NCBI RefSeq assembly: GCF_014698335.1
Contig: NZ_JACJSV010000049.1
Coordinates: forward strand, 1-36,822
DNA length: 36,822 nucleotides
Source of the DNA: Microcystis viridis FACHB-1342
GTDB lineage: Bacteria; Cyanobacteriota; Cyanobacteriia; Cyanobacteriales; Microcystaceae
Direction: 5' to 3'
Shown: piece by piece, positions 1,494 through 10,031 of the stretch
Layout: every line of letters starts with the position of its first letter
Position numbering within the stretch: the first letter of the stretch is position 1
Program-made: the position numbers and the translations under genes
Notes under the pieces: generated by a model
Seen by the model: the letters and a program-made list of their open reading frames with translations, nothing else
What the model was told of the DNA's origin: nothing
Database searches by the model: none

Positions 1494-2849
1494 TTAAATT
1501 TGAGAAAGTTCGCGTTCACCCGCTAATTTCAGTGCAGAAGCGGCTTCAGGAATATAGGAAGTTTTCGTTTTAGAGACCATACCTCCCTGTTGTTCCTGTA
1601 ATTGTTCTAGACGCATGGTACTCCAATCGGTCAGCATCGAGTTACCTAGCCGGGGGGCCAATTTGTTAATTTTCTCCACGGCGGAGATAGCTAATTCATC
1701 CATCTGTAGGGAAGCTAGATAGCAATCACAGGCGATGTCTATCTCTCCTAATCGTTCGTGACATTGGCCGGCCATAAACCAAGCGATCGCCATTCCGGGC
1801 GGGCCGAGTCTAGTGGCAGAACGATAGATTTTCGCCGCTTCTTCAAATTTATTTTGTTTCAGTAAAATTTCCCCCAGTTGCAGGCGATAACGAGAGTAAA
1901 GAGGTTCCATCGCCACCATTTTCTTCGCTCTCTCTTCGGCGAGATCGATATCACCCAACCAGAGAGCTTCTTTCGTTCGACTCTCAAAAACCGTCGTCAG
2001 ATTTTCATGGGCGGCAATTCTCTCGGTGTCGTTTTTACACTCGCGGGTTAGTTCTTCCGCTAGGGATTGACAGAGATCCATTTCACGGATAACCGTTTGC
2101 CGTTCACCCCGCAGAAGTGGAGCGAAAACAGCCGCACGCTGGAAAACACTGGTTAAACGTTTAAACTCGAAACGATCAAGGGAAGGTTCGAAGTGATAGA
2201 GTGCCTCTTTCGCTACTTCTCGCCAATGGGCGACCGCCGCTATATCTCGAAATACAGTAGCGTGTAAAGCGATTAGTTCTACGGCCGCCCCGAAAACCTC
2301 CAGGCTTTCTTTAGAAGCGTATTGAACGATTCGTTGAAAATCTTCGAGATTTTCTGATGTACTGATACTTTCTTGACAGAGGATTTTAGACATCGCCAGG
2401 CTGTAAGCTAATCTAGCGAACGTGGGGTCTCTGCCAATGTTTTCATCGGTAATTGCGGGAATATAGCGAGTAATCGCTTCATGAAAGCATAAACTCGATA
2501 ATAAATTAATTGTTTTCAGTTGAGTAGCGGGTGAAAGCTCACGATAATGCTCTAAATGCTCGCAAAGAACTCTCCAACGTTCGGTTCTCAACTCATCGGG
2601 GAGGGTGAGAGGATCGTTAATTGAGTATTGAAAAAGACCGGTCTCTCGAATCAATTGCTCTCGAAAAGAAGCAGGGTGAATGAGAGTAACCGGGTTCACG
2701 GACGACGTATTAGTATCTCGCACTTCGGAGACAAGATTTCGATAACTATAGTCAATTCCCTGAATATGCCAAGCGCCAGATTGATAGGGACTAAGATCGA
2801 AATAAGGACGATGGCTCCAAGTGATCGGAAAATCGTTTAAAAATAGCAT
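1494..2849 (-). CDS. TPR-repeat protein next to the peptide-export cluster
   Basis: The product is about 451 residues from the ATG at 2849; a TTG at 2861 would add four residues, and neither start has a strong ribosome-binding site. It is soluble, with no signal peptide. Residues about 300-400 contain helix pairs of TPR character (for example LGEILLKQNKFEEAAKIY and AGQCHERLGEIDIACDCYLASLQ), a fold used for protein or peptide binding. The N-terminal 60 residues (FDLSPYQSGAWHIQG) were not recognised. It is co-oriented with the export cluster and follows the precursor gene, from which it is separated by two miniature elements. A role in handling the exported peptide is possible but unproven. Confidence 0.7.
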   Translation of the reverse strand: MLFLNDFPITWSHRPYFDLSPYQSGAWHIQGIDYSYRNLVSEVRDTNTSSVNPVTLIHPASFREQLIRETGLFQYSINDPLTLPDELRTERWRVLCEHLEHYRELSPATQLKTINLLSSLCFHEAITRYIPAITDENIGRDPTFARLAYSLAMSKILCQESISTSENLEDFQRIVQYASKESLEVFGAAVELIALHATVFRDIAAVAHWREVAKEALYHFEPSLDRFEFKRLTSVFQRAAVFAPLLRGERQTVIREMDLCQSLAEELTRECKNDTERIAAHENLTTVFESRTKEALWLGDIDLAEERAKKMVAMEPLYSRYRLQLGEILLKQNKFEEAAKIYRSATRLGPPGMAIAWFMAGQCHERLGEIDIACDCYLASLQMDELAISAVEKINKLAPRLGNSMLTDWSTMRLEQLQEQQGGMVSKTKTSYIPEAASALKLAGERELSQI

Positions 2850-2965
2850 ACATATTCTCAAGAAATGCGATCTTTATCTGGTTGGTATTTCCACGATAGT
2901 CAACGGAGTATCTTGTTTTGCTGAACTACCGTGGAAACTGGGAGAAGGAAAAGATAAAATACTGA

Positions 2966-3083
2966 GGCGTTGCTGAATCAAGGTATGAATGCCAACTGTG
3001 CAGGTTCCCCTGCAAAAGTTAGTTTGGGTCTAGGTTTTAAGAAATTCCACCAAAGAAGATTCATATCTCAAATCAGCAACGCC
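2966..3083. mobile_element. Miniature inverted-repeat element (GGCGTTGCTG ends)
   Basis: The left end reads GGCGTTGCTGAATC..ATGAAT and the right end is its complement with about 5 differences over 25 bases (ATTCAT..AATCAGCAACGCC). Total length is 118 bases with no transposase. A 71-codon open frame running through it (2970-3185) is regarded as accidental. No clear target duplication was found. The ends resemble those of cyanobacterial insertion sequences that supply transposase in trans. Confidence 0.65.
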
Positions 3084-3139
3084 ATACTTCTATGTTTAGT
3101 CATTCTCAATAAGGCTGTCCTTATTGCGGTGACTAATTA

Positions 3140-3341
3140 CACCGCGAGGGAGCATCCCACTTTTGCAATAAGCAATTGTACTTAGATGCGAAATACTTAT
3201 ATGGCAAGCCTTTTCGGGAGTTCATAGATTTTCAACGGTTCTCTAAATTGTGTGATTGGAACCAGAATCGTTACTACAAAAGCCTTCTTACCCTTCTGAG
3301 CATTTATACTCATTACATAATTGGGATGCTCCCCACCGCGA
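3140..3341. mobile_element. 186-bp miniature element with 8-bp target duplication, inserted at the precursor stop codon
   Basis: The element spans 3148-3333. Its ends are GGGAGCATCCCA (3148-3159) and TGGGATGCTCCC (3322-3333), a perfect 12-base inverted repeat that continues imperfectly to about 25 bases. The direct repeat CACCGCGA flanks it at 3140-3147 and 3334-3341, the footprint of transposition with an 8-bp duplication. It encodes no transposase; its longest internal frame is 38 codons (3197-3313, minus strand). Excising the element and one duplication joins the precursor codon GTG directly to TAA, so the insertion occurred at the native stop. Confidence 0.88.
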
Positions 3342-3507
3342 CCGATTGAGATGAGCAGCAACACCAACGACAACAACCGCCTACCACTTGACGTAAGGTT
3401 TTAAAAGCGGTGATACTTTCTGGACTGTCGTTAGCGGCATCGGTGCGAAACTCGATAATTTCGTCAGTCACCGTGTTTTTGAGCTCGTTGATTTTGATGT
3501 TAGCCAT
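3313..3507 (-). CDS. Double-glycine leader peptide precursor with Cys-rich core (RiPP/bacteriocin-like)
   Basis: The product is 64 residues. The leader starts MANIKINELK, is acidic in its middle, and ends LRQVVGG at residues 38-44, the classical Gly-Gly site cut by C39 peptidase domains of exporters. The core starts CCRWCCCSSQ (Cys 45, 46, 49, 50, 51) and continues SVAV. The last six codons (GSIPIM) and the stop come from the terminal repeat of a miniature element; before insertion the gene ended ...SVAV-TAA. GGAGA lies about 9 bases before the ATG. The matching exporter lies upstream in the same orientation. No cyclase, dehydratase, radical-SAM or lanthionine enzyme is visible in the window, so the core may be exported with disulfides only, or be modified in trans. 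The precursor role is inferred from leader and context. Confidence 0.78.
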   Translation of the reverse strand: MANIKINELKNTVTDEIIEFRTDAANDSPESITAFKTLRQVVGGCCRWCCCSSQSVAVGSIPIM

Positions 3508-3559: not shown

Positions 3560-3800
3560 AGAAAACAATAACAATTTTTCAACATCAGATCAACTATCAA
3601 AATCGAACAAAAAAAAGATAATTGAGTTATTTATGTTCTTTTTGAAAGACTGTTTTTTGCGAAAACATCATCAAAACCGATTAAACAACGGGCTTCCAAG
3701 CTATTTAAAGAAACAAAAATAAGTAATTTATGTACAAAAAACTCTGAACTTGTCTTGTTGGAAGCAAAGAGAACCAACCAAGCTAACTGAATTGAGTTAT

Positions 3801-4032
3801 TTAGGGTTTGCGGCAAAAAGTTTGTTGATGGGGTTAGGAGTCAGGATTCAGTAGCCGGTCGTCGGTCGTTTCAGGCTTTGTTGCCCTCCTTTTTGTACTA
3901 GCTTGCGTACCACAAGAAGGATAATGCCAAGTTTTTGAAGGTCACAATCCTATTTTCGCAGCACTAACATCAGACTTTAACAGGTCAAAAGCCTTATTTT
4001 AAAAGGGTTTTATCATTATTCAGCAAGCACTA
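3801..4032. mobile_element. Degenerate miniature element (TTAGGGTTTGC ... TTCAGCAAGC)
   Basis: The left end TTAGGGTTTGCGGCAAAAAG and the right end TTATTCAGCAAGCACTA are imperfect inverted repeats. Internal words (AAAGTTTGTTGATGGGG on the left, AAGGGTTTTATCATTATTCAG on the right) match the better-preserved copy at 26996-27211. No coding capacity. This is a non-autonomous element or its relic. Confidence 0.5.
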
Positions 4033-4207
4033 TTTATTTTTTTTATTAACTGGGAATTCTGTTAATGAATAGATTCAGGAATTTTTAAAAGTGTATGTAT
4101 TAAAAATCGCTTTGTTGGTTTTTATGCTGAATAAGCTCACTCAAGAATAATCGGATTATTGGTATTTTATTAATCCATATTGTATTAATTTTATAGTAAA
4201 ATAATCC

Positions 4208-4310
4208 GTAGGTTGGGTTAAACGAAGTGCAACCCAACACAAAACATGAAGAATAATAGGGGGATGATGTTGGGTTTCATGCTTCAACCCAACCTACAAA
4301 ATAGGCGATC
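4208..4310. repeat. Dispersed palindromic repeat, complete copy B
   Basis: GTAGGTTGGGTTAAACGAAG and its imperfect complement CTTCAACCCAACCTAC (to 4297) face each other around an AT-rich centre with TGATGTTGGGTTTCATG. The tail AAAATAGGCGATC continues into the gene at 4284-4481 and supplies its last codons and stop. Half-copies lie at 565-610 and 1441-1486. Confidence 0.75.
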
Positions 4311-4481
4311 AGCCTTCTGTAAAACTTCCGCAGTGACCGACTCGCTTAGATAATACTCCCCGCAATTCTGACAGATATCCGCAGGGACTTGTTTTAAAAT
4401 CACGATACAATTATCTCTCTCTAAAGTAACGGTAACAAAACCCGATCGAGTCGTACCGTGTTTACAGATCACACATTCCAT
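4284..4481 (-). pseudogene. Truncated YgiT/MqsA-type zinc-finger antitoxin
   Basis: The remaining product is 65 residues. Two CxxC pairs (Cys 3 and 6, and CQNC about residues 37-40) form the zinc-binding site typical of YgiT-type domains, followed by the usual GEYYLSESVTAEVLQKAD helix. After LQKAD the frame enters the dispersed repeat and stops within about 8 codons, so the normal C-terminal end is missing. The toxin that usually precedes such genes is absent: the upstream neighbour is the isomerase, 57 bases away. The Zn domain may still fold, but a working toxin/antitoxin pair is not present. Confidence 0.75.
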
Positions 4482-4538: not shown

Positions 4539-5273
4539 TTAATTACTAAACTCGTATTCTATCTCTTGAATCTTCTCCTTTACCCAGCCGTTAAACAAAT
4601 CAACACCGATTTTCAGAGCCAACTCCTCGGTTAATTTTGGTTTAAGGATTTCCTCGACAAAAATCAGGTGAAAACCCCGATCGCCTTGCAGCGGTTTCAA
4701 CAATCGAGAAGAATCCGATGCGAAAATTGCGGACGAAAGATTCGGTCGTAAATCCTTACGGTAAACAGTACCGCGATAACCCCCCTTGCGTCGTAATTCC
4801 ACATCCTCGATATAGCGATGCGCTACTTCCTGAAAGCTGATTTCCTCCTCCTGAATTGATTCATACAACTCCTCCGCCATCGCCTGATCTGCTAACACTA
4901 CCTCATAGATCACCGCGCCAGTATAATCTAGCTGGTGTTCCACAAAATAGGATTCAATTTTGTCTGCGAAAAGATGTTCGGCTAATTTACCCGATAGTAA
5001 ATTGAATTGAACGATCGCCTCGAAATCGTCTAGGGATAAGCCCTGTTTTTCCAACCAATTCCATGTATCTTTGGCGTTATGTAATTCATTGGCGAGACGG
5101 AATTGATCGGCCGCCTGTTGTAACTCGTCAGTCGTGTTTTTAATCCCCGCTGCCGTGGCGGTTTCGGTGATGATTTTCCGACCGATAATTCCCTCGACTA
5201 TTTCGGGAACTTTCCCCGATAGCTTAAGCTGTTGGATAAGGTCTTGATTGCTGATGGTGATACTATGGGACAT
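4539..5273 (-). CDS. Parvulin-type peptidyl-prolyl cis-trans isomerase (foldase) of the export operon
   Basis: The product is 244 residues without signal peptide or membrane helix, so it would act in the cytoplasm unless exported by an unknown route. The N-terminal half is a SurA-like helical chaperone region (about 10-100). The C-terminal half (about 115-215) has rotamase-like character: AMAEELYESIQEEEISFQEV, RRKGGYRGTVYRKDL and LLKPLQGDRGFHLIFVEEI. It follows the HlyD gene by 18 bases. PpiC-like proteins of this kind recur next to C39 exporters and HlyD in cyanobacteria, where a role in keeping the exported peptide or exporter folded is presumed. Family call firm, substrate inferred. Confidence 0.85.
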   Translation of the reverse strand: MSHSITISNQDLIQQLKLSGKVPEIVEGIIGRKIITETATAAGIKNTTDELQQAADQFRLANELHNAKDTWNWLEKQGLSLDDFEAIVQFNLLSGKLAEHLFADKIESYFVEHQLDYTGAVIYEVVLADQAMAEELYESIQEEEISFQEVAHRYIEDVELRRKGGYRGTVYRKDLRPNLSSAIFASDSSRLLKPLQGDRGFHLIFVEEILKPKLTEELALKIGVDLFNGWVKEKIQEIEYEFSN

Positions 5274-5291: not shown

Positions 5292-6746
5292 CTACAGTTT
5301 TAACCCATCTTTTTGTAGATCCTTAAAGGGATCGAGGATGTAATCGATCACCCGACGCTGACGGACGATCGCTTCTGCGGTAGCCGTATCTCCCGGATTG
5401 AGGGGAATACATTGATTTCCCTTTTGAATACAGGAGCGATCGAGTTGAATTTCTAGCTCGAAAACGTTAATTTTTCCGTTGGGCGTTTCCTTTTCGATCG
5501 CCGTCGGTGATTTCTTGGTGATCTTGCCGCCGATAATGCCGTAATCCTGAAAAGGATAGGCATCGAACTTGACTTTTATCGGCATACCGGCGCGGAGAAA
5601 TTGACTTTGATCCGTGGGCATTTCTGCCTTGAGAATAAACCGCGATCCTTTCGGTGCTATCTCCGCAACCCGCGTTCCCGACTGCACCACCGCACCCGCG
5701 CGTTTAATCGGTAATGAAAAGATTGTGCCGTCGGTATTCGCCTTTAAAACCCTCTGACTTAGTTGGATTTGGAGCGCTTGCCGTTGGCTCTCGCTTTGGG
5801 CGATTTCCGATGCCAGTGTTGCGATCTCCGTGTCTAGATTGTTAATCTGCTCCTGTACCCTTAAGAGTGCCAACTCGTTGGAATGGCGGAGACTTTGATA
5901 ACCCCGCTGCCGCTCCTGTAATTGCAGACGCGCTTGGGCGATATCGGCGCTCGTTTGTTGACTCGTCTGACGGTAGGCACTTTTTAATTCCGCTAGTTTA
6001 TGTTGATTTTCTTTTACCTCCGCTTTTCCCCGCTCGTAGAGTTGTTGGCGCTCCTTGGCATTGTCCTCGCGCTCGATGAATTGCACCTCCGATATCGCGC
6101 CATCCTCCCACGCTTTTCGGTAGCGATCGACTTCTTTTAAAGCCGTTTCATAACGACTTTTGAGAATCGGATAATCGGTCTGACTTTGTGCGAGGGCGGT
6201 TTTCGCTTGATTTACCCGCGCTTGTTGTTCTTCTAGGGATATTTTGGCCTTCTTGATTAATGCGTCCACATTCTCCCGCGCTTGTTCGATCGAGGCTTCT
6301 TTTTCCGCTGCTGCCGCGCGATTTTGTTGGCTTTGGGTGGTTAAAGAAATCTCTAACTGACTTTTGACAAGTTTCTGTTGGGAAAGACGGCTTTTTTGTC
6401 CTTCTATTTTCTCCTCAATTTGTTGTATTTCCTTGCCGATTAATGAGGAATCTAGGGTTAAAATCGGTTGTCCTGCTTTCACCTCTTGGCCTTCACGGAC
6501 ATAGATTTTTTCCACTTTTCCCGTCGCGATAGCATCGATTTTGACTGTTTCTCCTTGGGGTTCCAGTTTTCCTGGTCCGACACCGGTTTCATCGACTTTT
6601 GAGAATATCGCCCAGGGGAGAATGATCGAGACGAAAATAATCAGAAAATAGAGTAAACCACGCGTCCAGGGTAGGGGTAAAGTATCGATCAATTCTTTGG
6701 TATGGAAAGACCAGTTATCGCGCTCTCTGTCTAGATTGGTTGTCAT
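5292..6746 (-). CDS. HlyD-family membrane-fusion protein
   Basis: The product is 484 residues. One membrane segment (about 30-48) follows a short cytoplasmic tail. Next comes the split lipoyl-like domain (VEKIYVREGQEVKAGQPILTL, residues 78-98) and a long Gln/Glu-rich coiled-coil hairpin (about 104-330). The second lipoyl half and beta-barrel follow, ending in a region with TATAEAIVRQRR near the C-terminus. It bridges the inner-membrane exporter to the periplasm and outer-membrane channel in type I secretion. It starts 2 bases after the exporter stop, indicating translational coupling. A partial copy of residues 68-134 lies at 126-325. No TolC-like gene is in the window, so a general one elsewhere must serve. 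Confidence 0.93.
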   Translation of the reverse strand: MTTNLDRERDNWSFHTKELIDTLPLPWTRGLLYFLIIFVSIILPWAIFSKVDETGVGPGKLEPQGETVKIDAIATGKVEKIYVREGQEVKAGQPILTLDSSLIGKEIQQIEEKIEGQKSRLSQQKLVKSQLEISLTTQSQQNRAAAAEKEASIEQARENVDALIKKAKISLEEQQARVNQAKTALAQSQTDYPILKSRYETALKEVDRYRKAWEDGAISEVQFIEREDNAKERQQLYERGKAEVKENQHKLAELKSAYRQTSQQTSADIAQARLQLQERQRGYQSLRHSNELALLRVQEQINNLDTEIATLASEIAQSESQRQALQIQLSQRVLKANTDGTIFSLPIKRAGAVVQSGTRVAEIAPKGSRFILKAEMPTDQSQFLRAGMPIKVKFDAYPFQDYGIIGGKITKKSPTAIEKETPNGKINVFELEIQLDRSCIQKGNQCIPLNPGDTATAEAIVRQRRVIDYILDPFKDLQKDGLKL

Positions 6747-6748
6747 AG

Positions 6749-9367
6749 TTATTCACTCAATTGATTAGAGTTCAAATTACGGTAAATTCCAGGTCTGGCC
6801 ATTAATTCTTCGTGGGTTCCACTATCGACTAATACCCCTCGATCGAGAACGAGAATACAATCCGCGTTCCGCACCGTAGAGAGGCGATGGGCGATAATCA
6901 CCATGGTGCGATTCTGCCGAATTTTCTGGAGATTTGTTTGAATAATCCGTTCCGATTCGGTATCGAGGTGGGAAGTGGCTTCATCGAGGATTAATAACCG
7001 CGGCTCTCCCATCAACGATCGAGCGATGGCGATCCGTTGTCTCTGTCCCCCGGAAAGTAGCCCTCCACCCTCGCCGATCTGGGTTTCGTACCCCATCGGC
7101 AGTGATTGAATAAAGTCATGAATTCCCGCTAATTTCGCCGCGACCACCACATTTTCTAGGGGGCGATCGGGATGACCTAAACTGATATTTTCCCGAATCG
7201 TGGAACCGAAGAGAAAGGTATCCTGATCGACGACTCCCACCTGTTGCCGGAGGGAACTGAGGGCGATCGTACTCAGATCGTAACCGTCGATCGATATCTT
7301 CCCATCGGTGGGGGGATAGAGGCCGATCAGTAATTTCGAGATCGTGGTTTTTCCCGAACCGCTCCGACCGACGATGGCAACGGTTTGACCGGGTAAAATT
7401 TCAAAACTGAGGTTTTCTAAAACATTCTGATCGCTGTCGGTGTGGTAGCGAAAGGTGACATTTTCAAAGCGAATATGTCCCTGTAATTCTGGGAGAAACT
7501 GACGGGAAAGTTCCTCTAAATTCTCCTCCGGTTTCGCGTCCAGTACATCGTTAATGCGCTCGACGGCGATATTGACTTCTTGAAATTGCGTCCAGAGAAC
7601 GGTTAAGCGTTGAAAAGGCGCAATGATCTGGGCAAAAAGCATATTAAAGGCGATCAGTTGTCCGATCGATAATTGATTTTGAATCACTAGATAGGCACCG
7701 AAACAGAGTAACCCCGTCGTCGCTAAAGATTCGATCAGATTACTGAATATCTGGAGATTATTGCCGATGATCTGCCCGGAGAAATTTTTCTTGACCTCCA
7801 CCGAGAAAAGGTCTTCCCAGTGCCAACGGGTCGATCGCTCTGTGGCGGTAGATTTGACGGTACGAATACCGGTTAAAATCTCGATTAGGTAACTGCTTTC
7901 TTTAGCGAGTGCCTGAAAAATATCCCGGGATATTCGCTGCAGAAAAGGGGTAGAAATTAACGCCAGTAGAAGGAACGGTGGCACAATCGCCAAACTGATG
8001 AGGGCTAATTGCCAGCTATAGCGGAACATCACCGCCACATACACGAAAACCGTTAATAAGTCAAGTAAAATCGAGAGAGCTTCCCCAGAGAGAAAACGCT
8101 GGATCTTGCGATTTTCCCCGACGCGAGAAATGATATCGCCCACATAGCGGGACTCGAAATAACCGAGGGGAAGGCTGAGGGTATGGCGGATAAAACCGGT
8201 GATTAATGCCGTATCGATGCGATTAGCGGTGTGATCGAGGAGATAGGCGCGTAAACCGGTAATTGCTACCCGAAAAACCCCGAAAATTAGCGCACCGATC
8301 CCCATCGCCCAAAGGGTAGTTAAGGACCCCTGGACGATTACTCGATCGAGGATTAACTGGGTGAAAATCGGCGTAATTAAGCCGAATATCTGGATAAAAA
8401 GCGAGGCGACGAAAATTTCCAGCAGCACGAACCAATGGGGTTCCAGTAAGCGATAAAACTGCCAGAGAGAGGTTTTATCCTCTTTCGTGTCCCGGAATTT
8501 CTGGTTCGGTTGGAGCAGCAGGGTGAATCCCGTCCATTTACTGGCGAATTCGGCACGACTTAGGGTTAATTGCCCGATCGCTGGATCGCCAATAATCACC
8601 TGTTTGGGGGTAATTTTCCAGATAACAACGAAGTGTTTGCCTTCCCAGTGAGCGATCGCCGGTAGGGGCTGTTTCCCTAATCCCTCTAGAGTCGCTTTTA
8701 CCGGACGGGTGGAGAGGCCGATATTTTCCGCCGCGGTGATCAGTCCCGACAGGGATGCCCCGTCGCGGTTGACGTTGGCCATTTCCCGCAAACGGTTGAC
8801 GCTGATTCTTTTGCCCCAATAACGGGCGATCATGACTAAACCGGCCGCCCCGCAATCGGAGGCGGACTGTTGCTCGAAGAAGGGATAACGGCGGAGGGAT
8901 TGCCCGATCCAGTGACCTAACCGCTGCGCCGGAGAGGGAAAATAGGCTCGATCGCTTTTTTTGTCCGTTTCTTCTGTCTTCGTCCCAAGAAGTTGCTCAA
9001 TTTCCCGCGCCCGTTGCAGTAATGTTTTTTTCAGGGCGGGGTGTTTTTTCAGGATCGGCCTCAGGGCGGACTCGGGGATAAGAAGTAGTTCCGCCTTTGC
9101 GGAGACTCGAACCGAGTAGGGAAGAAAACCCGATCGGGGAAAGAGGGTGAATTCTCCAAAAAATTCGTCGGTTTTGAGCGCGATCATCTCTTTTTGCTGC
9201 GAGTTCGCTATGCGAACTTTGCCGCGAACCACTAGATATAATCCGGGCTGTAGGGGCAGTGTACCTGCTTCGGGAGAGAGGGTGATCGCCGTTTTCTGGA
9301 GACTCCGCCACTGGGTTTCGGACAGGAATTCTGGCCAGGGATTGACGAGGCTGTGAGTATCGAGCAT
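6749..9367 (-). CDS. C39 peptidase ABC exporter with N-terminal cyclic-nucleotide-binding-like domain
   Basis: The product is 872 residues. Residues about 10-130 form a cyclic-nucleotide-binding-like beta-barrel (FGEFTLFPRS around 70-79), but the phosphate-binding loop is atypical, so ligand binding is doubtful. Residues about 160-290 are a C39 cysteine peptidase with Cys172 (SASDCGAAGL), His245 (GKHFVVIW) and Asp261 (GDPA). Six membrane helices (about 310-600) follow. The ATPase domain has Walker A GRSGSGKT (667-674), signature LSGGQ (771-775), Walker B LLILDE (791-796) and switch His827, all intact. Such proteins cut Gly-Gly leaders and export the core peptide; the precursor at 3313-3507 is the obvious client. 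It lies 7 bases after the HTH gene. Confidence 0.95.
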   Translation of the reverse strand: MLDTHSLVNPWPEFLSETQWRSLQKTAITLSPEAGTLPLQPGLYLVVRGKVRIANSQQKEMIALKTDEFFGEFTLFPRSGFLPYSVRVSAKAELLLIPESALRPILKKHPALKKTLLQRAREIEQLLGTKTEETDKKSDRAYFPSPAQRLGHWIGQSLRRYPFFEQQSASDCGAAGLVMIARYWGKRISVNRLREMANVNRDGASLSGLITAAENIGLSTRPVKATLEGLGKQPLPAIAHWEGKHFVVIWKITPKQVIIGDPAIGQLTLSRAEFASKWTGFTLLLQPNQKFRDTKEDKTSLWQFYRLLEPHWFVLLEIFVASLFIQIFGLITPIFTQLILDRVIVQGSLTTLWAMGIGALIFGVFRVAITGLRAYLLDHTANRIDTALITGFIRHTLSLPLGYFESRYVGDIISRVGENRKIQRFLSGEALSILLDLLTVFVYVAVMFRYSWQLALISLAIVPPFLLLALISTPFLQRISRDIFQALAKESSYLIEILTGIRTVKSTATERSTRWHWEDLFSVEVKKNFSGQIIGNNLQIFSNLIESLATTGLLCFGAYLVIQNQLSIGQLIAFNMLFAQIIAPFQRLTVLWTQFQEVNIAVERINDVLDAKPEENLEELSRQFLPELQGHIRFENVTFRYHTDSDQNVLENLSFEILPGQTVAIVGRSGSGKTTISKLLIGLYPPTDGKISIDGYDLSTIALSSLRQQVGVVDQDTFLFGSTIRENISLGHPDRPLENVVVAAKLAGIHDFIQSLPMGYETQIGEGGGLLSGGQRQRIAIARSLMGEPRLLILDEATSHLDTESERIIQTNLQKIRQNRTMVIIAHRLSTVRNADCILVLDRGVLVDSGTHEELMARPGIYRNLNSNQLSE

Positions 9368-9374
9368 AGTTGTT

Positions 9375-9848
9375 TTAAGCTTTGGCTGAAGGAGAAAGAT
9401 CGATGATGCGGATCGGCTGTAGCTGTTTGCGGAGGCGATTGACGTGGGTGGGGGTGAGCGCGACCCCGAATTCTTTCTCTAGATGCTGCGCTAACCAAAC
9501 TCCCGACCATCGGTTAAAGGAATAGCCGAAATCCCGGGGGGATTTACTAATCAGTTCTCTCAGGCGATCGAGGTAAAATTGATCAACTTTGGAAGGGCGA
9601 CCGCGGCGGTATTTCTGCCAGTGATCGATCTTGCCACTCTCGGCGATCAGTATCCATTTACTAGCGGTGGCGGCAGTACAATCGAGAAGCTTACGGATCT
9701 CGCCCGGGGATTTGCCCTCGTCAGCGAAAAGAATGATTTGAATCCGTTTGCGATCAACATCAGAGATATTTGGTTCTGTTAAGATTTCGAGAAGTTGCTG
9801 ACGTTGGGATGGGGATAGATATTTACCAGTGCTTGATGACGTTGACAT
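9375..9848 (-). CDS. IS630-like helix-turn-helix protein, first gene of the export operon
   Basis: The product is 157 residues from ATG 9848; the frame is open further up, but the extra N-terminus (Cys/Leu-rich) has no support. It has a homeodomain-like HTH (about 15-70, with KSPGEIRKLLDCTAATASKW) and a second winged part (about 85-140, GYSFNRWSGVWLAQHLEKEF), as in the DNA-binding half of IS630 transposases. The DDE catalytic domain is absent and there are no terminal repeats around it. Its tight coupling to the exporter (7-base gap) argues for a domesticated regulator rather than an element fragment. A transposase relic co-transcribed by chance is the alternative. Confidence 0.75.
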   Translation of the reverse strand: MSTSSSTGKYLSPSQRQQLLEILTEPNISDVDRKRIQIILFADEGKSPGEIRKLLDCTAATASKWILIAESGKIDHWQKYRRGRPSKVDQFYLDRLRELISKSPRDFGYSFNRWSGVWLAQHLEKEFGVALTPTHVNRLRKQLQPIRIIDLSPSAKA

Positions 9849-9909
9849 AGCCTTTGCAACTATAAGTAAAAGCAGACAGCAGCAGGTCGGAACGTTGAGG
9901 CAAGAAAGA

Positions 9910-9925
9910 TGTACTAAGTTGTACA
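9910..9925. promoter_or_regulatory. Inverted repeat upstream of the export operon
   Basis: TGTAC-TAAGTT-GTACA is a 5-base inverted repeat with a 6-base spacer, about 60 bases before the start of the HTH gene. It is a plausible autoregulatory operator for that protein; this is inference from position only. Confidence 0.3.
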
Positions 9926-10031
9926 ATGGGCTGACTTCCCCGGGTGACGATCTCTTTCGCTGTCCTTAAATTATTATTGTGGCTGCGAAAGTGAAAATTA
10001 TGCAGTCTATTAAATTCTTTTGCTCTCCCCC

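Follow-up and report, generated by a model that had tools for sequence, protein, structure and literature searches.

The window analysed here is contig NZ_JACJSV010000049.1 of Microcystis viridis FACHB-1342 (assembly GCF_014698335.1), positions 1-36,822, taken at its full length of 36,822 nucleotides. Its minus strand carries a short double-glycine peptide precursor gene, which adjoins a gene for a TPR-repeat protein on one side and is accompanied on the other by genes for a YgiT-type zinc-finger protein, a rotamase, a secretion adaptor and an ABC transporter (Table 1). C39 peptidases cut after Gly-Gly, and the leader of the precursor ends in this dipeptide beside a transporter with a C39 peptidase domain. 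The frames of the transporter, HlyD and rotamase genes are all open. In 11 of 12 further loci, two of them being the same locus, the precursor has a TPR gene of this family as its neighbour; the exception is L120, a short Microcystis stretch. The TPR gene may belong to the precursor system. The transporter combines an N-terminal cNMP domain with the C39 peptidase, and HlyD and the SurA-type rotamase are adjacent, so that by gene content we would assign the cluster to the double-glycine type, group I/II, as these groups are outlined in the accessible part of Wang et al. (PMC3140520). Modification genes, the M16 peptidase (group II) and the S8 peptidase (group VI) were not detected among the subset of window ORFs scanned against Pfam.

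Table 1. Features of the precursor locus (positions in the window)
Feature	Position	Strand	Basis
TPR-repeat protein gene, adjoining the precursor	1494..2861	-	domain search; locus comparison
Second element with inverted repeats (ends GGCGTTGCTG / CAGCAACGCC), lying between the precursor and TPR genes	2966..3083		sequence; genus matches
Another short repeat, internal hairpin, edge carrying the pre-insertion stop	3084..3140		genus matches; RNA fold
Stop codon TAA in use before the insertion	3137..3139	-	joined flanks
Target-site duplication CACCGCGA, copy 1	3140..3147		direct-repeat comparison
Miniature inverted-repeat element, 186 bp, non-autonomous, ISKra4-type ends	3148..3333		genome copies; ends; parent IS
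Terminal inverted repeat, left	3148..3159	+	comparison of element ends
Element-encoded tail GSIPIM and stop codon	3313..3333	-	translation; reading of element ends
Double-glycine precursor gene, 64 aa, element-derived end	3313..3507	-	ORF translation; leader relatives in genus and order; leader pS/pN
Terminal inverted repeat, right	3322..3333	-	comparison of element ends
Target-site duplication CACCGCGA, copy 2	3334..3341		direct-repeat comparison
Host-encoded core codons CCRWCCCSSQSVAV	3334..3375	-	translation; joined flanks
Leader codons, ending in Gly-Gly	3376..3507	-	leader/core comparison with genus relatives
YgiT-type zinc-finger protein	4284..4481	-	family search
PpiC/SurA-type rotamase	4539..5273	-	NCBIfam/Pfam search
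HlyD-family secretion adaptor	5292..6746	-	NCBIfam/Pfam search
ABC transporter with cNMP-binding and C39 peptidase domains	6749..9367	-	PF00027, PF03412, PF00664, PF00005

Three other features of the surroundings were observed. A repeat of ~235 bp at ~3797-4035 has many copies of ~80-89% identity, with matches in all 12 genus genomes among the matches listed. Just upstream of the transporter gene, 9375-9926 encodes a helix-turn-helix protein or fragment (HTH_32, HTH_23), which we take to be transposase-like. At ~122-325 there is a displaced fragment of the HlyD gene, with positions 131-300 identical at 164 of 170 bases to a stretch 6220 bases further on, a hint that part of the cluster was duplicated at an earlier time.

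The precursor frame reads MANIKINELKNTVTDEIIEFRTDAANDSPESITAFKTLRQVVGG-CCRWCCCSSQSVAV-GSIPIM-stop, and the right end of the 186-bp element supplies its final 21 bases; read from that end, the element begins GGG AGC ATC CCA ATT ATG TAA. The element lies exactly between a GTG codon and the former stop codon TAA. When it is removed together with one copy of the flanking repeat, the frame becomes ...TCG GTC GCG GTG TAA, that is, ...SQSVAV-TAA, with a core of 14 residues (CCRWCCCSSQSVAV); with the element in place, the frame is ...SQSVAV-GSIPIM-stop and the core has 20 residues (CCRWCCCSSQSVAVGSIPIM). The joined flanks thus agree with the preliminary description, which had proposed the same junction. 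The frame is intact, as are the leader with its Gly-Gly and a GGAGAA ribosome-binding site. The chance probability of an 8-base repeat at fixed borders is ~4^-8.

The element starts with GGGAGCATCCCA and finishes with TGGGATGCTCCC, which together form a perfect inverted repeat of 12 bp. The genome contains two more copies, with other flanks, that match it at 100% over exactly 186 bp, so that its borders are fixed independently of the precursor site. The extent, the inverted ends and the direct repeats originally described are confirmed, as is the claim that GSIPIM and its in-frame stop are element-encoded, the tail being the terminal 21 bp that recur in these copies. Counting its own genome, nine full-length copies (95-100% identity) were found in five of the 12 Microcystis genomes that make up the genus set. 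Exact direct repeats of 8-9 bp flank three of the nine, the copy at the precursor site among them, and are absent at the other six. The element was not found in plasmids or phages, nor its end in viral contigs. It has the properties of a MITE: it is short and lacks a transposase gene, and it has terminal inverted repeats, a target-site duplication and dispersed near-identical copies.

There are six reading routes into the element, five of which stop after 6 to 44 residues; one is open throughout, for 61 residues, far below the 314-residue transposase piece of the parent. The phase of the precursor gives the shortest tail of the six. From both ends of the element, the same phase yields short, stop-terminated tails, GSIPIM and GSIPLLQ. 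As RNA, the element is predicted to form a strong fold closed by its own ends (-55.6 kcal/mol, z -4.4). In L021 (G008:C204), where a further copy lies, a putative minus-strand frame of 81 aa ends in the element-encoded GSIPLVQ.

A relative carries a candidate parent, an insertion sequence of 1179 bp (L042:361-1539) that has its terminal 12-15 bp in common with the element and is flanked by its own 8-bp duplication, AGCACATC. Its transposase is broken, and the larger piece matches the ISKra4 model NF033572 with an E-value of 2.4e-80 and 270.7 bits (cut-off, 205 bits). Given the termini common to this insertion sequence, the 186-bp element is best read as an ISKra4-derived MITE. An intact ISKra4 transposase was not found in the M. 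viridis assembly, which holds only two partial matches, neither above the model cut-off, so that the source of the transposase in this strain was not seen; one of the two reaches within two bases of a contig end in this draft assembly of 138 contigs.

The 108 bases of the joined flanks were searched against the 12 genus genomes for an empty site. No exact one was found: outside the locus itself, no match spans the 8-bp target. The closest is the syntenic locus L091 of M. novacekii (G007), which lacks the element and has the core AAAAKWTVKWKVAVK, whose last residues are VAVK; VAV occupies core positions 12-14 there and in the window alike. The two sequences share GGTCGCGGT, 9 identical bases in register, a run length reached in 4 of 20000 shuffles; within the duplicated 8-base target the match is only 7 of 8, and the two cores differ in their first 11 codons. 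This supports the view that the precursor probably ended in VAV before the insertion; L091 is not a perfect empty site. The empty site anticipated in the preliminary description is hence represented only by this relative, with VAV in the same place.

That description had also taken SVAV for the ancestral end of the core. It can stand as the immediate pre-insertion end but not as an original one, because the stop codon then in use falls within the edge of another repeat (3084-3140). This repeat has matches in 11 of the 12 genus genomes at E <= 0.1, and GTAATTAGTC opens it in 8 of 20 other places among the matches listed, several of them with unrelated left flanks. It forms a short hairpin (RNA fold z -4.5) and is scattered through the genus. 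The second inverted-repeat element beside it has matches of 88% and 89% in the genus loci L095 and L096, and inspection by eye found no target-site duplication around it. The blocks that flank the whole stretch are ~30-50 bases apart in L092 and L093, two of the three syntenic relatives, compared with ~400 in the window. Hairpins also occur 3' of related precursors. In G011 (L093:9735-9790, minus strand), a strong A+U-rich hairpin directly follows the stop codon of the second core (z -4.3), whereas the hairpin past the stop of the third precursor copy of G001 is weak (z -1.4); the window keeps the right part of the G011 hairpin stretch and misses the left arm. The window has another hairpin at 3084-3140. 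We make no claim that the insertions replaced a terminator.

A single-sequence search detected the precursor in five of the 12 genus genomes (its own, G007, G001, G011 and, more weakly, G009), with three tandem copies in G001 and one full and one partial copy in G011. An alignment-based search gave matches in 13 of 388 genomes of the order, including G006; the precursor was not found in viral contigs or plasmids. The leader fits no NCBIfam or Pfam family above cut-off, and no NHLP or Nif11 (N11P) hit was listed at E <= 1 in these libraries, where HMMER filters drop most matches above ~0.1. The window was compared with five genus precursors, namely that of L091, the three copies of L092 and the first copy of L093. 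Leader DNA is 93-96% identical, compared with 21-52% for core DNA (21 to 45 bases compared), and pooled over the 15 pairs of the six sequences, leader pS is 0.100 and pN 0.026. The 19 cores collected are 7-20 residues long, 15 containing Trp and 11 Cys; the window core equals the longest with its tail and is mid-range (14) when the tail is omitted. Judged from these alignments, the leader is conserved and the core hypervariable. The ending GSIPIM occurs in none of the 18 other cores; its presence in homologous precursors of strains lacking the element had been named as an observation that would speak against the original proposal.

Further changes were seen within this family. In G001 (L092:7772-10229, G001:C1), two tandem units of 1229 bp, with one precursor each, differ at five bases, four of them non-synonymous and located inside the 24-nt core, in a stretch of 12 nt, where they change four residues (TMAANFFY vs TIGATSFY). 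The chance of at least four of five differences falling in the core is ~7e-7 under even placement; as far as one pair noticed post hoc can tell, the core would be where change is kept or made. The four substitutions are, on inspection, not confined to adenines, and a diversity-generating retroelement was rejected as their source. In L093 (G011, ~9783-10029, minus strand), there is a partial in-place duplication, in which the first core, AAAKWVVR-stop, is followed by half of the leader again and a new core, CCWCYYMQM; its start, CCWC, is similar to the opposite end of the core in the window. Repeat-made 3' ends were considered for other cores and are not supported: the dispersed repeats listed for G001 and G007 fall past the stop codon, outside the core, starting ~50 bases beyond it in the first G001 copy and ~30 in M. 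novacekii, so that such ends cannot be taken as general.

With a probability of roughly 85%, we consider that an ISKra4-type MITE inserted between the last sense codon and the stop codon, and that the C39-exported precursor gained a tolerated GSIPIM tail. An ISKra4-type transposase, presumably acting in trans, would have inserted the non-autonomous 186-bp element and duplicated 8 bp at the target, between the last sense codon and the stop of a peptide precursor putatively exported by the C39 transporter. As the 21 bases read from the right end of the element encode six residues and a stop, the ribosome would add GSIPIM and terminate. The leader and the Gly-Gly site lie upstream of the insertion and are untouched, so that the neighbouring transporter should still cut the precursor and export a core of 20 instead of 14 residues. 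The insertion may have survived because it is located in a hypervariable core, in which relatives have little sequence in common; the change would have been tolerated rather than advantageous. Against this reading stand the failure to find an exact empty site in the 12 genus genomes, the 7/8 target match and the differing first 11 core codons in M. novacekii, the six of nine copies without an exact repeat, the presence of only partial transposase matches in the assembly, and a core length that, with the tail, equals the maximum of the 19 cores.

That the tail was there originally, with the element merely adjacent, has almost no credence, since the tail is encoded by the last 21 bp of the element, which two copies with other flanks carry unchanged, and no other core ends in GSIPIM; no supporting point was found. 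A draft-assembly artefact, in which a repeat copy was misjoined into the gene, is suggested by the division of the genome into 138 contigs and by the repeated nature of the element, but we regard it as highly improbable: a misjoin is not expected to yield an 8-bp duplication at the exact element borders, and the flanks share a conserved gene order, with the leader on one side and the TPR gene on the other, as in L091, L092 and L093. A more serious alternative, possible if doubtful, is that the insertion silenced the gene, either through destabilisation of the message by the structured element or because the longer core is not exported or active, and that the gene is heading for loss. The strong fold of the element RNA would fit this, as would the second element and the further repeat gathered between the precursor and TPR genes, the retention of only the right-hand part of the strong G011 hairpin, and a leader change, L20F, absent from the five genus relatives; a 95-bp MITE in a Microcystis piricyclamide precursor has been read as silencing in the available part of one report (PMC3428304). 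Yet frame, ribosome-binding site and Gly-Gly leader all remain intact, the transporter genes have open frames, and there is no measured sign of lost function.

The remaining alternatives concern the value of the tail. If the element end had been selected as a new core end, transposition would act as a source of peptide diversity; the core clearly changes fast, and both element ends yield short, stop-terminated tails in the same phase. This is nevertheless a single case, with no second GSIPIM end among the 19 cores, and in two relatives the listed dispersed repeats start past the stop codon, which makes usefulness of the tail distinctly unlikely. The preliminary description had read the locus as a transposable element diversifying a secreted peptide, a claim that is unproved: the core varies strongly in relatives without the element, so that one insertion is no proof of transposition as a source of diversity, and since the core is hypervariable across the family anyway, the new tail may be neutral or harmful. 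A broader view, also unlikely, is that the part after Gly-Gly in this TPR-linked precursor family is a dedicated hypervariable cassette, reworked alike by point changes restricted to the core, by partial tandem duplication and by the ends of mobile elements, the leader being nearly fixed.

In Coxiella burnetii, QMITE1 and QMITE2 are located at gene 3' ends and provide the last residues and/or the stop, and EnhC of the Dugway strain presumably owes 33 additional C-terminal residues to QMITE2, according to the portion of PMC5896051 available; there too a MITE supplies the end of a host gene, but the hosts are housekeeping and other proteins rather than a short peptide in which the core itself is the product, and the element family differs. 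The 95-bp MITE of the Microcystis pirE cyanobactin precursor, reported as silencing (PMC3428304, in part), likewise lies in a gene for a ribosomal-peptide precursor, and in the same genus, although the pathway (cyanobactin), the outcome and the length set it apart, by description rather than by sequence. A 187-bp ISL3-type MITE of Microcystis aeruginosa PCC 7806 inserts into coding genes with 8-bp duplications (PMC11448079, in part): it is of nearly equal length, but its ends are GGCTCTTCG and its parent ISL3, as opposed to GGGAGCATCCCA and ISKra4 here. Rickettsia palindromic elements, reviewed with other coding MITEs (PMC10969869, PMC2229807, both in part), are also small mobile elements translated as part of a host protein; those are in-frame inserts in larger proteins, unlike the terminal extension with the element's own stop seen here. 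Cyanobacterial double-glycine 'bacteriocin' clusters have been divided into groups I-VII (Wang 2011, PMC3140520, in part), and the present cluster resembles them in its long-type C39 ABC transporter with cNMP (CAP_ED), HlyD, SurA-type rotamase and short precursors with variable cores, while differing in a leader that fits no NCBIfam/Pfam family above cut-off and in the TPR gene paired with the precursor. In the accessible text of a Planktothrix study of insertion sequences near peptide clusters, the word MITE is absent (PMC9366434), and nothing in the open-access literature, as far as its texts were accessible, was found to describe an ISKra4-type MITE that makes up the end of a precursor exported by a C39 transporter. 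MITE-made gene ends and a MITE in a Microcystis peptide precursor are therefore already known; the unusual point here is that the change falls in the peptide product itself.

The locus offers a clean example: which residues of a secreted-peptide precursor stem from a transposable element can be read exactly from its sequence, and because the leader and the cleavage site are untouched, the old 14-residue and the new 20-residue cores are directly comparable. A precursor family in which cores change much faster than their surroundings is a test bed for peptide diversification. Should the region after Gly-Gly indeed be a dedicated hypervariable cassette, Microcystis would be drawing on its many mobile elements as one raw material for new exported peptides.
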